This document shows positions 9,851 through 16,650 of a DNA stretch of 64,000 nucleotides, in pieces. The stretch covers positions 1 through 64,000 of the forward strand of contig JAEUHX010000041.1 of NCBI GenBank assembly GCA_016792805.1. Direction: 5' to 3'. The stretch comes from Planctomycetota bacterium (GTDB lineage Bacteria; Planctomycetota; UBA1135; JACQFD01). Position 1 is the first letter of the stretch. Every line of letters begins with the position of its first letter. Both the position numbers and the translations under genes were made by a program. A model generated the notes under the pieces. That model saw only the letters and a program-made list of their open reading frames with translations. It was not told the origin of the DNA and did not search any database.

Positions 9851-11584
9851 ATGCGCTTTCCGCCCCCCGCGACGATCCCGGTGGCGCTCGCCATGGCGGC
9901 CCTCGGAAGTTGCGGCAGAGAAAGGGCGCGATCGATCCAGCTCGAAGAGGTCGGCCTTTCCACGAACATCGATGTCCGCGTGAAAAGCGGCGATCCGCGC
10001 CGCTGGTACATCCCGGAAAGCAACGGCAGTGGTGCCGCCTGGCTCGATTACGACAGCGACGGCGATATGGACCTGCTGATCGGTAACGGCGCTTCCGTGA
10101 ACTATGTGGAGGACGGCAAGCGCCTCGAGATCGTGAAGGACGGCGGCACTCGGCTCTACGCGAAGGATTGGAAGGAGGATCACCCTTTTCCCTTTTTCGA
10201 CGCCACCGAAGCATCTGGACTCTCCTGTAAGGAGTGGGTCAACGGGATCGCGACCGGCGACATCGAGGGCGATGGAGACACCGACGTCTATTTCGCGAAC
10301 TTCGGAATCGACGCTCTCTACAGAAACGACGGAGGGAAATTCCGCGACGCCACGGAGGAGTGTGGACTGCGCAACGAGAAGTGGGGGGCTTCGGCCGCAT
10401 TCGCCGATGTCGACAACGACGGCGACCTCGATCTATATGTTGCAAACTACTGTGAGTTCGATCCGGAAAACCCGCCTGCCGGTGGGAAGCGAAATGTGAT
10501 TCAAGGGGTTGAAGTCGCCTGGGGCCCCGAGAAAGAGAATCCCGGCATCAATCTCGGCGCACCGGACGTCTTCTTCCGCAACCAAGGAAAAGGAATATTC
10601 AAGAATGAAACGGTCGAAGCGGGGCTGGCGCTGCGAAAGCCGCTCTGCTCCTACGCAGTCGTCTTCAGCGACATCGACCTGGACGGCTGGCAGGATATTC
10701 TCGTTGCCAACGACGGGCAGCCGAGCAACCTCTTTCACAATAAGGGACTTGGCCGATTTGTCGAAGAGGGAGAGGCGCGCGGATTCGCATACAACTCGAA
10801 GGGACAGGCCACGGCGGCCATGGGACTCACGGTCGAGGACTTCGACGGTGACGGCGACATGGACGTCTTTCGCACAAATTTCGATCTGGAGGCCAATTCG
10901 CTTCTCGTGAACGACGGCAAGGGGAACTTTACGGATCGGGCGGAGGAGTTCGGCCTCGCGGCGCCGAGCCTCGACCGCCTCGGCTGGGCCTGCGCATTTT
11001 GGGACGGCGACAACGACGGCGATTACGACATCCTCGTGGCCAATGGCCATGTGTATCCTCAGGCCGAGAAAATCGGCATGCACGCATGGCTGCAGCGAAG
11101 CCAACTCTTCGAGTGCTACCGCGACGAAGCCGGAATGCTCAAGTACCGCGATCGGTCCAGCCGGATCACAGACCCGTTCAGCCTTCCGGCCGCAGCACGC
11201 GGAATCGCCATCGGTGATCCCAATAATGATGGGCGGGAGGATGTGGTGATCGTCGATATCGACGGGCCTCCTCGCTTGTTCCGTAATGTCACACGAAATC
11301 CCGGACACTTCATCACCGTGCGGCTCATCGGGGTGGTCAGCAATCGCGACGGGTATGGCGCCCGTGTGACCGTATTCACCGGCGGCCGATCATTCGTGAG
11401 AGAGATGCGGACCACGCAGGGACTTTACAGCTCCCATGACCCTCGGCTTCACTTCGGGCTCGGCAACGAACGGGACGTGCTCAAGGTCGTCGTCGAATGG
11501 CCCTCGGGAACAGTACAGATCGTCGAGAAGCCGCAGACCGATACATTTATTACAATCCGCGAGCCGTCGAACGCCCCCCGTTAG
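9851..11584 (+). CDS. FG-GAP/VCBS repeat lipoprotein with C-terminal ASPIC/UnbV domain
   Basis: The product is 577 residues. The start at 9851 follows GAAGG at a good distance and gives a lipoprotein signal with LGSC lipobox. The longer frame (9770) would overlap the divergent SDR start. The body is a beta-propeller made of calcium-binding FG-GAP/VCBS repeats, each with a DxDxDGDxD loop (for example DYDSDGDMDLL, DVDNDGDLDLYVAN, DFDGDGDMDVF). The last ~100 residues form the ASPIC/UnbV domain (GHFITVRLIG, then RTTQGLYSSHDPRLHFGLG). This CRTAC1-like family is common in planctomycetes and acidobacteria and its function is unknown. The radical SAM gene begins 12 bases after its stop, so this is the first gene of that operon. 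Confidence 0.88.
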   Translation: MRFPPPATIPVALAMAALGSCGRERARSIQLEEVGLSTNIDVRVKSGDPRRWYIPESNGSGAAWLDYDSDGDMDLLIGNGASVNYVEDGKRLEIVKDGGTRLYAKDWKEDHPFPFFDATEASGLSCKEWVNGIATGDIEGDGDTDVYFANFGIDALYRNDGGKFRDATEECGLRNEKWGASAAFADVDNDGDLDLYVANYCEFDPENPPAGGKRNVIQGVEVAWGPEKENPGINLGAPDVFFRNQGKGIFKNETVEAGLALRKPLCSYAVVFSDIDLDGWQDILVANDGQPSNLFHNKGLGRFVEEGEARGFAYNSKGQATAAMGLTVEDFDGDGDMDVFRTNFDLEANSLLVNDGKGNFTDRAEEFGLAAPSLDRLGWACAFWDGDNDGDYDILVANGHVYPQAEKIGMHAWLQRSQLFECYRDEAGMLKYRDRSSRITDPFSLPAAARGIAIGDPNNDGREDVVIVDIDGPPRLFRNVTRNPGHFITVRLIGVVSNRDGYGARVTVFTGGRSFVREMRTTQGLYSSHDPRLHFGLGNERDVLKVVVEWPSGTVQIVEKPQTDTFITIREPSNAPR

Positions 11585-11596
11585 AGTTACATTCCC

Positions 11597-13834
11597 ATGC
11601 GCGTTCTGCTGATCAATCCGCCGCAGGCACACTTCACCCAGCCGCTTCTGGCGCTTCCGTCGCTTGCCGCGTACCTCCGGAGCCATGGGTTCCCGGAGAC
11701 TGCGATGATCGATGCGAGCATCGAGGCCTACGACGATTTCTTGACTTCCGCGCGGCTGCGCCGGTCGCTTGAGCGCGTCCGTGCACCGCAGCGGCTCAAG
11801 GAGCTTGACGCAAAGCCCGAGCTTCGGTTTCGGCAGATGGAAGAGTATCAGCAGCTCTCCGAGATCGCGCTGAGCGGCGAGGCGATCGTGGAGGGCATCG
11901 ACGAGGCGAAGCGCGTGCTTCGATCGCCTCGGGAGTTTTACGACTACGAGCGTTATTTGTGGGCAGCGCGGACGGTGGAGCAGGGGCTGCGGCTCTTCTC
12001 GGCGGAGTATTCACCCACACGCCTCACGGCCCACGGATTCGTGATGCGGGCACAGATCGAGCGCTCGGAGGAAATCCTGGGCGCCATCGACAACGAGCGG
12101 GAGAATCCTTATGTGGAGTGGTTTCGGGAGCGCCTCATGCCCCGAATCCGAGCGCTCAACCCCGACATCGTCGGCATTTCCGTAACTTTCGGGAGCCAAG
12201 CGATTCCGGCCTTCACGCTCGCCAAGCAGCTCAAGGAATGGAAGCCCTCCATCCATATCACCATGGGCGGCGGGCTGCTCGCCTACGTCGCAAAGAAGCT
12301 GTCGAAGCGGCGTGAAGTCTGGAACGTCCTCGACACCTTCGTCATGCTGGAGGGCGAGCGGCCGCTCTTGGAATTGTGCAAAGCGGTGGACCGCGAGAAG
12401 CGCGGCGAGGCTCGCGATTGGTCGCGCATCGGCAACCTGCTCTATCGCGACGGAGAAACGGGAGAAGTGGTGGCGACGCCCGAGCTGGCGCCGCTCGAGA
12501 TCCAATCGCTTCCGACGCCCGACTTCGACGGCCTACCGCTGCATCTCTACTTCTCTCCGGAGCTTGTGCTGCCGCTCGCCATCACGCGCGGCTGCTACTG
12601 GGGGAAATGTGTGTTCTGCACGCTCTACACGGTGATCGGCCCCGGATACCGCGGACGGTCCATCGAGCAGACGGTCGCCGACATCGCGGCGCTCAAAGCA
12701 AAGTACGGCACGAAGCACTTTTATCTCGTCATCGAGGACTTGCCGCCGAACATGGCAAAACGCCTTCCCGGGGCGATTCTCGAGGCGAAGCTGGACATCG
12801 ATTGGTGGTGCGACGCTCGGCTCGAGCACGACGTGTTCGATCAGCAGACATGTCAGGAGCTTGCCGCCTCCGGATGCAAGCGCATCGCCTTCGGCTACGA
12901 GAGCGCCAGCCGCCGAGTCCTCGACCGCATGTGTAAGGGCATCGACCCCGACCGCAGCATTCAGCTCGTCCAGCGCTGCCACGATGCCGGGATCAGCGTC
13001 ACGCTGTATGTGATGGTGGGCTTCCCGACGGAAACCCGCGAGGAGGCGGAACTCACGCTGAGAACGATTCTCGCCCACCGCGAGAAGATCCAGGAAGTGA
13101 GCGTCCGCGTCTTCTACCTCGATGAGACTTCGGAGGTTTTCCGCCGTCGGCAGGAGTTCGACATCGTGGAGGTCTACCCCGACCCGAAGGCCGACCTCCA
13201 GGTTTATTATGATTTCAAGGCGGGCAGCGGAATGAGCCGCCGCGAGGCGCGCCAAATGTATCTTGAGTTCACTCGAGCGCTACGCTCCCTCTTCCCGGTG
13301 TTCCAGAACACCAACATGCTCTATCACGAGCTCAAGTCTCACTATTTCCTCTACCTGGCGAAGCACGGCTCCTGGAGCGCGCTGACGGAGAACGTCCTCG
13401 AGCGCACGGCCTCGCAGAGTGATCTCGATGGGCGGCCGCGCGCCCGCGCTCGAGTGCGATCCCTTCCGCTCCGATTTGACCGCGGCGCCATCGACCAGCG
13501 CCTCACGGCCGTCGATTCCGCGACGATCCGACCCCGTTACCAAAGCGATTTGTTAGATGAGGAGGATCGGGAACGGTTCGACCGCGATCTCGCGCCACAG
13601 ACACCGAGCGACTGCGTCCTCGTCTACGACCTCAACGCCGCAGAGGCCCAGGCCCTTTCCCCTGCTGCATTTGAGCTATTTCGCCGCTGCGACGGGCTCC
13701 GTTCGGAGGAAGAAATTGTTGAGATCATCCCGGCCCCCTACCGCGACGACGCGCGCCACGCCCTGCGGGCACTCGCCGCTGCGGGACTCCTCGAACGATC
13801 CTCGCCTGGTCTTCCCGCATCGGTACGTTCGTAG
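11597..13834 (+). CDS. B12-binding radical SAM protein with C-terminal PqqD-like domain
   Basis: The product is 745 residues. The N part (1-260) is a cobalamin-binding Rossmann region (RVLLINPPQ, then IVGISVTFGS and ITMGGG). The radical SAM core starts about residue 325 with RGCYWGKCVFC. The cluster cysteines 333, 338 and 341 are spaced CX4CX2C rather than the usual CX3CX2C. Later core segments are FGYESASRRVLDRM and YVMVGFPTET. The last ~80 residues (LSPAAFELFRRCDG, then EEIVEII and LRALAAAGLL) read as a PqqD-like winged-helix peptide-binding (RRE) domain. Such fusions usually modify ribosomal peptides. The gene lies between the ASPIC lipoprotein gene and a 64-residue peptide gene 18 bases downstream. 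Substrate and chemistry are unknown. Confidence 0.85.
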   Translation: MRVLLINPPQAHFTQPLLALPSLAAYLRSHGFPETAMIDASIEAYDDFLTSARLRRSLERVRAPQRLKELDAKPELRFRQMEEYQQLSEIALSGEAIVEGIDEAKRVLRSPREFYDYERYLWAARTVEQGLRLFSAEYSPTRLTAHGFVMRAQIERSEEILGAIDNERENPYVEWFRERLMPRIRALNPDIVGISVTFGSQAIPAFTLAKQLKEWKPSIHITMGGGLLAYVAKKLSKRREVWNVLDTFVMLEGERPLLELCKAVDREKRGEARDWSRIGNLLYRDGETGEVVATPELAPLEIQSLPTPDFDGLPLHLYFSPELVLPLAITRGCYWGKCVFCTLYTVIGPGYRGRSIEQTVADIAALKAKYGTKHFYLVIEDLPPNMAKRLPGAILEAKLDIDWWCDARLEHDVFDQQTCQELAASGCKRIAFGYESASRRVLDRMCKGIDPDRSIQLVQRCHDAGISVTLYVMVGFPTETREEAELTLRTILAHREKIQEVSVRVFYLDETSEVFRRRQEFDIVEVYPDPKADLQVYYDFKAGSGMSRREARQMYLEFTRALRSLFPVFQNTNMLYHELKSHYFLYLAKHGSWSALTENVLERTASQSDLDGRPRARARVRSLPLRFDRGAIDQRLTAVDSATIRPRYQSDLLDEEDRERFDRDLAPQTPSDCVLVYDLNAAEAQALSPAAFELFRRCDGLRSEEEIVEIIPAPYRDDARHALRALAAAGLLERSSPGLPASVRS

Positions 13835-13852
13835 AATCTGTATGGTGATCCC

Positions 13853-14047
13853 ATGAGCGACCCGCAGAATCCCAAGAAGGCCCATGCCCCGGCCGATTCC
13901 GGCTCGACGCTGCCTCCCGAAGCGGCTCCCCAGAGTGCCGCCCCGATCGAGGAGAGCAAGCCGGCGCCTCCGGCAAAGTTCGTCTTCAAAGTCGTCCGCG
14001 CCGATCCCAAGAATGCGTTCGACTTCGAGGACGTCGCAGATAAGTAA
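13853..14047 (+). CDS. Small Pro/Ala-rich peptide, candidate radical SAM substrate
   Basis: The product is 64 residues. The ATG at 13853 is 18 bases after the radical SAM stop, with a GGTGA purine stretch just upstream, and the stop is 14 bases before the acetyltransferase gene. The first ~42 residues are polar, disordered and rich in Pro, Ala, Ser and Glu, like a leader. The last 22 (from KFVFKVV to FEDVADK) are denser in Phe, Val, Asp and Lys, like a core. There is no cysteine and no membrane segment. No known precursor family is recognised. Its position right after an enzyme carrying a PqqD-like domain is the reason to think it is a modified peptide. It could also be an unrelated small protein. 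Confidence 0.62.
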   Translation: MSDPQNPKKAHAPADSGSTLPPEAAPQSAAPIEESKPAPPAKFVFKVVRADPKNAFDFEDVADK

Positions 14048-14061
14048 CAAAGACGCAGCGA

Positions 14062-14922
14062 ATGTTTTGTGATCTCGAGACGGCATCTCGCATCGAGGAG
14101 GCCGAGGCGCGCATGATGGCGGAGATCGCCCGTGTGGCCTGTGACGCAGGCGGCGCGCGCGGCTGCATGATCGAGCCGATCGAGGAGGGCGTGGCGCTTT
14201 TCCTGCGCCATGGTTCGCCGCTGAACAAAGCGATCGGATTCGGCCTTCGAGGGCCCATCCGCGAGGAACTCCTCGACGCCATCGAGGAGCGGTGGCGGAA
14301 GGCCAACGAAAACTTACAGATCGAGCTGGCGACTGTCGCGGCGACCGGAACGGTTCAACAATTCGTGGCACGCGGCTACAGGCTCGCGGCCTTCGAGAAT
14401 GTGCTCGGGTGCCGGCCAAAGGACGCCGCCGACTCGATGGCCCATCGCTCTGCTCATCAGGTCGAGCGCGTCGATCCAGCGGAGCGCCGTCGCTGGGTGG
14501 AGCAGGTCGCCGATGCGTTCCTCGCTGGAGACGGCACGGGAGCGGGAAGCGCCGACGCCTTCTCGCGCGATGAAATTGTAAACACCATGCTGGAGACGCT
14601 CTCCGTCCCTTCGATGCGATCGTATGCCGTGCGGGTCGACGGCGCGTGGGCGGGCGGCGGCTGCATGCGCATCGATCCAGCCGGAGTCGCGCAGCTCTGC
14701 GGGTCGTCAACAGCGCCCAGCCTGAGGCGCCGAGGTGTGCAATCGGCCCTCTTGGCGGCGAGGCTCGCCGAGGCCGCGAGCTGTGGATGCAGCGTCGCCG
14801 TGCTGACAGCCCAACCCGGATCTCGATCGCAGCAGAACGCACAAAAGCAGGGGTTTGCTCTGCTTTACTCGCGCGCCCTACTCGTCAAGGATCTCTCCCT
14901 CCCGCGCACGCCTCACGCGTGA
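14062..14922 (+). CDS. GNAT-family N-acetyltransferase
   Basis: The product is 286 residues. The C-terminal half (about 150-286) carries the GNAT fold. A central strand precedes the acetyl-CoA loop LRRRGVQSALLAARL (motif A, a variant of RxxGxG/A), followed by the late QNAQKQGFALLYSRALLVKD strand-helix-strand. The N half resembles a second, degenerate GNAT lobe (FVARGYRLAAFENVL), so it may be a tandem-GNAT protein. It is the last gene of the ASPIC, radical SAM and peptide operon and is followed after 29 bases by a strong terminator. In that setting it might acetylate the peptide, or give resistance to it. Both are inference. Confidence 0.8.
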   Translation: MFCDLETASRIEEAEARMMAEIARVACDAGGARGCMIEPIEEGVALFLRHGSPLNKAIGFGLRGPIREELLDAIEERWRKANENLQIELATVAATGTVQQFVARGYRLAAFENVLGCRPKDAADSMAHRSAHQVERVDPAERRRWVEQVADAFLAGDGTGAGSADAFSRDEIVNTMLETLSVPSMRSYAVRVDGAWAGGGCMRIDPAGVAQLCGSSTAPSLRRRGVQSALLAARLAEAASCGCSVAVLTAQPGSRSQQNAQKQGFALLYSRALLVKDLSLPRTPHA

Positions 14923-14951
14923 TGGATCGCGGAGGCGGGCACCGCTTGCGG

Positions 14952-14987
14952 GGTGCCGCGCAAGGATTCGCGCGGCACCTCTTTTTC
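14952..14987 (+). terminator. Rho-independent terminator closing the radical SAM operon
   Basis: A perfect 10-bp stem (14952-14961 with 14970-14979) with an 8-base loop is followed by TCTTTTTC. It sits 29 bases after the acetyltransferase stop, so it defines the end of the ASPIC, radical SAM, peptide and GNAT transcript. It also argues against starting the next gene at 14953 inside the stem. Confidence 0.9.
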
Positions 14988-14997
14988 GGTGCTCGCC

Positions 14998-16650
14998 ATG
15001 CTCCAGCCGATTGTTCAAGGCGCTCTTTGGAGCGCGCTGCTGTTCGCGTCTTCCATCGCGCAGACGCTTCCTGTTGCCACCCTGCTGCCCTCCGGCCCCA
15101 GTTCGAACGATCAATTCGGAAAGGCTGCAGCCATCCATGGCGGGCAGGCCGTCGTGGGATCGAGCCGCCCCAGCGGGGGCTTCGCAGGAGCGGCTTTCAT
15201 CTTCGAGCGGCAGCCGGACGGATCGTTCTCACAAAAAGCGATGCTTGTTCCGCCTGTGGGAGTCACCTCCTCGAGCTTCGGAACCGCTGTGGCCATCACC
15301 ACGGATCGTGTTGTGGTCGGATCCCAGCACGACAGCGATCTCGGCGCATCCTCGGGCGCCGCCTATGTATTCGAGCGCGACGCACTTGGAACCTGGTCAC
15401 AGACCGCGAAGCTCCTTGCAAATGACGGAGCGACGAACGACCAGTTCGGCTGCTCGGTCGCGATTGATGGAACGCGAATTGTGGTAGGCGCGCTGGCCAA
15501 GAATGCAAGTTTTCCGTCGGCGGGCGCTGCGTACATTTTCGAGAAGCAGGCATCGGGGACGTGGCTCCAGGTGGCCAAGCTCGTCCAGGCCGACGCCATT
15601 CCAATGACACTCTTCGGCTGCCATGTGAGTCTCTCGGGCGACTGCGCCGCCATCGGCGCCAGAGGCGACGACGACAAAGGATTCAATTCCGGATCCGTTT
15701 CGATCTTCGAGCGTGATGGAGCGGGTCTGTGGACTCTCGCCAATAAAGTTACGGCTGCCGACGGATTCTCGAATGATGGATTCGGCTTCTCAGTCGCAGT
15801 CTCCGGCAGCCGGCTCCTCGTCGGTTCGCATCTCGACGACGACCTCGGCTTGGGCTGCGGCGCCGCCTATCTGTTTGAACGCCTCGGACCGAATGCCTGG
15901 ACGCAAGCAAAGAAGATCGTTCCCGCGGACGGCGCAGCTTCGGATCGCTTCGGCAGCTCGGTTGCGCTCGACGGAGATCTCGCCATCATCGGAGCCGTGC
16001 AGGACTCCCTCGGGACGACGTCCTTCGCAGGCTCGGCCTATCTGTTTCAACGGGACCTCCTCGGCAATTGGAATCAGAGTGCCAAGCTGACCGCCGCTTT
16101 CCCGGTCGCGAGCGGGCAGTACGGAGGGTCCGTGGGAATTTCAGGTGAGCGCATTCTTGTGGGATCCCCCCAGGCCTCGAACGGAGCTTTCATAAAAGCT
16201 GGCCTCGTCGATTTGTGGCGAACTGACGGCTCGGGCTGGAGCGAAATCCTGGGAGCCGGCGTCGCCGGCTGCTCCGGCGCCCACACCGTGGCGCTCGCGA
16301 AACCGCCGGAGGTTGGAATCGCGGGTTTTGGCTTCTTGAGTTCGGCCGCCCCCGCTTCCAGCCTCGGCGTCGGCCTGCTGACGGACCAGTCTCTAGGGAT
16401 TCCGGTCGATCTGCTCGGGATCGGGATTCCGCTCCATACGGATCTGTTTACATCGTCGGCCGTCCTCGGACTCGACGTGCCGAGCAACGCGGCGGGAGCC
16501 GGTTCCGTTCTGTTCAGCATGCCCAATGATCCGCTCCTCGTGGGCACTCACTTCACAGTACAGATTCTCTGGGCGTGGACGGCGTGCAGCCTCCCTCCCT
16601 ACAACCTGAGCAGCACCCCTGGCCTCACGTTCCGCGTGCTCGCGCCGTAG
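14998..16650 (+). CDS. Secreted FG-GAP repeat protein with planctomycete-type C-terminal tail
   Basis: The product is 550 residues. I chose the ATG at 14998 because it begins a signal peptide (MLQPIVQGALWSALLFASS, cleavage after IAQ) and lies just past the terminator. The body has about seven repeats of the form FGxAVAI-G-xVVGS-D-GAAYVFER-GTWSQ, an integrin-alpha-like seven-bladed propeller lacking the DxDxDG calcium loops of the 9851 gene. The last ~110 residues are a separate beta domain (GAGVAGCSGAH, GIPVDLLGIGIPLHTDLF, GTHFTVQILWAW), the tail found on many exported proteins of some planctomycetes, probably for surface retention. Function is unknown. Monocistronic or leading the trpF-like gene 65 bases downstream. 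Confidence 0.84.
   Translation: MLQPIVQGALWSALLFASSIAQTLPVATLLPSGPSSNDQFGKAAAIHGGQAVVGSSRPSGGFAGAAFIFERQPDGSFSQKAMLVPPVGVTSSSFGTAVAITTDRVVVGSQHDSDLGASSGAAYVFERDALGTWSQTAKLLANDGATNDQFGCSVAIDGTRIVVGALAKNASFPSAGAAYIFEKQASGTWLQVAKLVQADAIPMTLFGCHVSLSGDCAAIGARGDDDKGFNSGSVSIFERDGAGLWTLANKVTAADGFSNDGFGFSVAVSGSRLLVGSHLDDDLGLGCGAAYLFERLGPNAWTQAKKIVPADGAASDRFGSSVALDGDLAIIGAVQDSLGTTSFAGSAYLFQRDLLGNWNQSAKLTAAFPVASGQYGGSVGISGERILVGSPQASNGAFIKAGLVDLWRTDGSGWSEILGAGVAGCSGAHTVALAKPPEVGIAGFGFLSSAAPASSLGVGLLTDQSLGIPVDLLGIGIPLHTDLFTSSAVLGLDVPSNAAGAGSVLFSMPNDPLLVGTHFTVQILWAWTACSLPPYNLSSTPGLTFRVLAP

Follow-up and report, generated by a model that had tools for sequence, protein, structure and literature searches.

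Genes of the locus

The first 64,000 nucleotides of contig JAEUHX010000041.1, from the planctomycete assembly GCA_016792805.1 (hereafter the window), contain a locus in which a cobalamin-binding radical SAM enzyme is followed by a small peptide that is its candidate substrate. Four genes lie here on the forward strand: an ASPIC/UnbV FG-GAP propeller protein that is a probable lipoprotein (9851–11584; lipobox ALGSC at residues 17–21), the 745-residue enzyme (11597–13834), the 64-residue peptide (13853–14047) and a 286-residue GNAT acetyltransferase (14062–14922), predicted to share the same transcript. The intergenic gaps of 12, 18 and 14 bases agree with a preliminary description of this DNA, as does the strong intrinsic terminator reported after the last gene: a stem-loop at 14950–14981, on the same strand, has 12 pairs (10 of them G-C) followed by TTTTT, and is by far the strongest of six sites in a scan in which the number of such sites was no higher than in shuffled sequence. 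Pfam matches above cut-offs in these genes were UnbV_ASPIC, FG-GAP_3, Radical_SAM, B12-binding and Acetyltransf_1.

A radical SAM enzyme that combines B12-binding and PqqD-like domains

The B12-binding domain occupies enzyme residues 175–260 (12119–12376; PF02310, 36.7 bits, above cut-off) and was detected by Pfam in all 41 enzyme homologues examined, in which the three cysteines of the iron-sulphur cluster motif C333-x4-C338-x2-C341 (12593–12619) are likewise invariant. An AlphaFold model of the enzyme reached a mean pLDDT (per-residue confidence) of 91.1 and a pTM (global confidence) of 0.90, and its closest solved folds by Foldseek were OxsB (E 2e-16) and TsrM (E 1e-15).

The C-terminus had been described from its letters as PqqD-like. 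The PqqD Pfam score of the window's enzyme alone is only suggestive (16.4 bits against a cut-off of 23.4), and the same model matches 17 of the 41 homologues (best E 4.8e-5). Since searching PDB sequences for the C-terminal domain returned only chance-level matches, with no PqqD among them, we used hhalign with shuffled controls: aligned to a PqqD profile made from 20 planctomycete PqqD-family domains, the C-terminal-domain profile scored a probability of 98.4% over 59 columns, and 30 column-shuffled profiles scored at most 3.7%. In the model, this end of the enzyme forms two strands (673–678 and 683–687) and three helices (689–697, 704–708 and 713–728), the order of the PqqD fold. The profile comparison and the model together indicate that the PqqD-like domain (residues 667–738; 13595–13810), which resembles a recognition element (RRE) of ribosomally synthesized and post-translationally modified peptides (RiPPs), is real; it was the only PqqD-like match found in the window's genome.

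A small peptide conserved at its C-terminal end

Close enzyme orthologues were identified on 29 contigs, of which almost all carry the label Planctomycetota. All 28 loci that could be read (the 29th contig ends too early) contain a relative of the peptide, and in 26 of these it lies immediately downstream of the enzyme, mostly in a 4-base overlap with the enzyme's stop codon. At locus L045 (6001–8280), a single metagenome-assembled case, the enzyme's end is joined in frame to the strand and tail of the peptide; at L050 (8199–9676), the C-terminal end of the enzyme is interrupted and repeated ~1.3 kb later, and an intact peptide lies behind the second copy. The peptide is single copy in the window's own genome, two peptides stand behind the enzyme in four further genomes, and the contig of a fifth breaks off.

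Aligning 40 peptides revealed that the N-terminal 30–50 residues, rich in Pro, Ala, Glu and Lys, vary freely across classes; that a strand-like motif begins 20–23 residues before the end (YVFKI, FRFKR, LDLTVE or LDLEID; KFVFKVV in the window); and that the C-terminal end is mostly [VI][AF]DK across classes, the tail hardly varying within clades. Purifying selection acts on the last 22 codons (pN/pS, the ratio of nonsynonymous to synonymous polymorphism, 0.29; 23 relatives). From this alignment we conclude that the conserved part of the peptide is its last ~22 residues, strand plus tail (FVFKVVRADPKNAFDFEDVADK, 13979–14044). The polar Pro/Ala N-terminus, which the preliminary description had taken for a leader, is unlikely to be recognized as one because it is variable and mostly lost in the L045 fusion. 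In the clade with two peptides, these have a common strand and differing tails (GFTGQE[RM] and EDIADK) behind one enzyme, an arrangement that resembles a recognition strand followed by a core.

Scans of the 40 peptides against Pfam and NCBIfam found no recurrent family. Profile comparisons connected the peptide classes through the EDIADK class (C2), with probabilities of 95% for A–B, 68% for B–C2, 48% for A–C2 and 51% for C2–D, all exceeding shuffled controls. Judged by its conservation, the 64-residue open reading frame (ORF) is a genuine gene.

Enzyme and peptide are inherited together

Phylogenetic profiles were drawn from a sample of 392 planctomycete genomes. A profile of the class-A/B tail matched 13 of these, with one copy each, and they are exactly the 13 top enzyme scorers; a profile of the NVFDK/NIFDK tail matched 19 at E < 1e-10 (four weak matches, E 3e-4 to 8e-3, were left out of the count), and they are exactly the next enzyme group. 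Even in genome G259, where enzyme and peptide are on separate contigs, the two co-occur. In the enzyme tree, the peptide-linked enzymes form one clade (support 100/99), which joins long outgroup branches so that its root is uncertain, and each peptide class occupies one branch. No such peptide was present beside the ~600-residue relatives of the enzyme that lack the PqqD-like tail (loci L090–L097). These profiles indicate that the enzyme and a ~60-residue peptide are inherited together across many planctomycetes.

The lipoprotein and the acetyltransferase fared differently. In 26 of the 29 close loci, the gene immediately preceding that of the enzyme encodes an ASPIC orthologue (51–58% identity), often translationally coupled to it and in many cases with a lipobox. 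Among the sampled genomes, the orthologue (600–694 bits; next paralogue 320) occurs in exactly the nine of class A, adjoining the enzyme, and the window's genome has six ASPIC domains in total; at three class-B loci, other FG-GAP/ASPIC genes surround the enzyme. By contrast, no GNAT homologue was found near the enzyme in the 29 loci, and among the 13 peptide-bearing genomes only three have one, unlinked in the other two; we rejected it as a part of the system and judge it to be a passenger. The RiPP-like pathway of four parts proposed in the preliminary description is therefore retained as a PqqD-bearing enzyme and peptide, conserved across the phylum with exact co-occurrence and with peptide relatives beside homologous enzymes throughout Planctomycetota; the ASPIC/FG-GAP lipoprotein stays as a conserved third gene in the window's clade, and the acetyltransferase drops out. 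The description's own refutation test, which asked whether the peptide is missing or unconserved beside homologous enzymes or the C-terminus fails to model as PqqD, did not refute it. No conserved protease or transporter was found within 6 kb of the enzyme in the 29 loci.

Proposed mechanism and alternatives

The best reading of the locus is a two-gene RiPP-like module that is accompanied by a third gene, ASPIC, in the window's clade. It has the anatomy by which RiPPs are recognized: a short peptide gene tied to an enzyme by synteny and co-occurrence, and an RRE/PqqD domain seen by hhalign and in the model. From the gene order, coding, co-inheritance, domains and strand-plus-tail layout we infer binding, modification, chemistry and role as follows. 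We think it probable, with some reserve, that the B12-radical SAM enzyme uses its built-in recognition domain to modify the C-terminal tail of its own peptide, and that the pair represents a new RiPP-like family. The enzyme would grip the peptide through the PqqD-like domain, with which the strand motif (KFVFKVV here, LDLTVE elsewhere) would pair, so that the last 12–16 residues could reach the active site with its cobalamin and iron-sulphur cluster. There the tail would most likely undergo methylation by a cobalamin-dependent radical mechanism, or some related reaction at carbon, and the site probably lies among the last ~5 residues, [DN][VIT][AF]DK. Because the tail is strongly constrained and neither an exporter nor a protease gene is conserved, the product would probably have a single fixed cellular role rather than that of a variable antibiotic; the ~1:1 coupling of peptide and enzyme and the one fusion genome lean toward a cofactor-like, signal-like or enzyme-bound product. 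In the window's clade, this role would be tied to the ASPIC propeller lipoprotein, which, as the preliminary description suggested, might receive or display the product.

Support for this reading comes from the exact profiles (13 and 19 of 392 genomes), from the adjacency of peptide and enzyme in 26 of 28 loci, from the PqqD-like domain, from the enzymes that lack this domain and have no peptide, from the single peptide-linked clade and from the paired peptides with a common strand. We also count the precedent of ApyD (PMC10635010): this B12-radical SAM enzyme bears an RRE, and its target is a precursor whose C-terminal Asp is conserved and whose penultimate residue it methylates. Several observations weigh on the other side. 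The modification is itself a proposal from sequence, and in a model of the natural L045 fusion the tail is not docked and has a pLDDT of ~45–54. It is the tail and not the leader that is conserved, and peptide and enzyme are mostly coupled ~1:1, both unusual for a RiPP precursor. In four loci of the group designated f44, and in a fifth genome, where it is on a separate contig, the peptide does not adjoin the enzyme; and direct profile comparison of class A with class D peptides gave no significant similarity.

As the chief rival, the peptide could be an accessory subunit which binds the PqqD-like domain and whose tail gates or inhibits the active site, the true substrate being something else, such as the ASPIC lipoprotein or a small molecule. 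The 4-base overlap and translational coupling suggest about one peptide per enzyme, and the natural fusion in L045 and the variation of partner genes between clades also count in favour. Against it, one enzyme can stand before a pair of peptides that share their strand but not their tails; the named enzymes with the best family scores (TIGR03975 and ApyD) act on peptides; and in known systems the PqqD-type domain serves to bind a precursor (PMC8326336). We regard an accessory subunit as unlikely, if well worth weighing. Somewhat less likely still is a specific elaboration of tail modification, in which the modified tail would be a peptide-derived cofactor or signal working with an exported beta-propeller protein, and the system would be a new class of RiPP that serves a housekeeping function in planctomycetes. 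Its partner might be the ASPIC/FG-GAP protein here and, in other clades, an FG-GAP protein or a histidine kinase that bears a propeller, and PQQ (pyrroloquinoline quinone) with its propeller dehydrogenases offers a loose analogy.

A small peptide beside a PqqD-bearing radical SAM enzyme is also the usual anatomy of a conventional secreted RiPP, antimicrobial or similar, which general cell machinery might export and cleave; the nearly fixed tail, the single copy and the lack of a conserved protease or transporter at the 29 loci make this improbable. Shortness, a disordered N-terminus and a conserved C-terminus could also describe a protein tag of the Pup/UBact type, and distant homologues of the enzyme in Desulfobacterota adjoin ARC ATPase, Dop and PafA-like genes; yet neither the window's genome nor any sampled peptide-bearing genome contains the Pup ligase PF03136, which largely refutes such a tag, and the final residue of the tail is Lys instead of Gln or Glu. 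We rejected it as very improbable. That the ORF arose by chance or is an unrelated small gene has nothing in its favour beyond short length and the lack of a family, and is refuted by the exact co-occurrence with the enzyme, the purifying selection and the conservation of the peptide across families; we give it next to no weight.

Comparison with known systems

One of the closest known systems is that of ApyD and the aminopyruvatides of Burkholderia, with which the proposed tail-modifying module shares an RRE-type domain on a B12-radical SAM enzyme and a short precursor; ApyD acts next to a conserved C-terminal residue, and modification of a conserved tail is proposed here. The window's enzyme nevertheless scores 85 bits against the ApyD model (NF050148; cut-off 750), the precursor ends in DK rather than YLYD, an ASPIC partner is present, and the system has no multinuclear non-haem iron-dependent oxidase (MNIO), P450 or methyltransferase: no MNIO, the enzyme that defines the aminopyruvatide class, was found among the Pfam-scanned neighbours in the window, and no such conserved gene cluster in the 29 loci. 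The best NCBIfam match, the RiPP maturation radical SAM C-methyltransferase TIGR03975 (130.8 bits, residues 171–529), falls below its cut-off of 281.85, so that the enzyme is not a member, and that model lacks the PqqD-like tail and DK-type peptide of this system.

In mycofactocin and PQQ synthesis, a radical SAM enzyme works together with a PqqD-type partner to modify a small peptide, and a cellular cofactor results (PMC8326336). Constrained substrate residues and a PqqD-type element are common to those systems and this one, but their enzymes carry SPASM and no B12 domain, whereas B12-binding and Radical_SAM with no SPASM match were found here by Pfam and NCBIfam; the differences extend to the tail residues and the partner genes. 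OxsB and TsrM, nearest in fold, have 14–18% identity with the enzyme and substrates that are not ribosomal peptides of this kind. By these comparisons, the system operates like the RiPP systems, already known as a kind, in which a B12-radical SAM enzyme is fused to an RRE, yet it scores below the cut-off of every named member. We found no paper in the open-access literature that combines ASPIC/UnbV, radical SAM and a planctomycete peptide.

The small-molecule and surface biology of Planctomycetota is little known. ASPIC/UnbV proteins are common in the phylum and, to our knowledge, have no assigned function; here they gain a testable genetic partner. Strict co-inheritance defines an unannotated peptide family with a dedicated B12-radical SAM enzyme and, joined in the window's branch by a surface lipoprotein, points to an undescribed peptide-derived product. 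The conserved tail, 1:1 coupling and enzyme-peptide fusion would mean that RiPP logic applies to a fixed component of the cell as well as to variable secreted products.

Neighbouring genes and distant homologues

An exported FG-GAP_2 propeller protein (14998–16650) begins directly past the terminator in the window, and FG-GAP proteins are also neighbours at L071, L075 and L089. A second B12-radical SAM enzyme lies upstream in several loci of groups f2 and f44. At the f44 loci L075, L080, L087 and L089, a LuxR-type response regulator stands between enzyme and peptide, joined in three of them by a propeller-bearing histidine kinase, a placement that hints at signalling. At the three related loci L076, L077 and L078, a protein with multiple CxxCH haem motifs is encoded after the peptide, ~2.5 kb past the enzyme start. 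Immediately upstream of the enzyme at L071, L073 and L081 is a small conserved protein (VISRDGVGVNERL), which by eye resembles the NifX/iron-molybdenum-cofactor family.

The distant enzyme homologues in Desulfobacterota (~30% identity; L061, L063, L064 and L065) lie within Pup-proteasome operons with ARC ATPase, Dop and PafA-like genes, adjoining a conserved, uncharacterized protein of ~230 residues. A small ORF that follows the enzyme at L065 and ends in DNRFDK was taken as chance, as it is not repeated in L061, L062 or L064. The L065 locus additionally carries the mycofactocin glycosyltransferase MftF.

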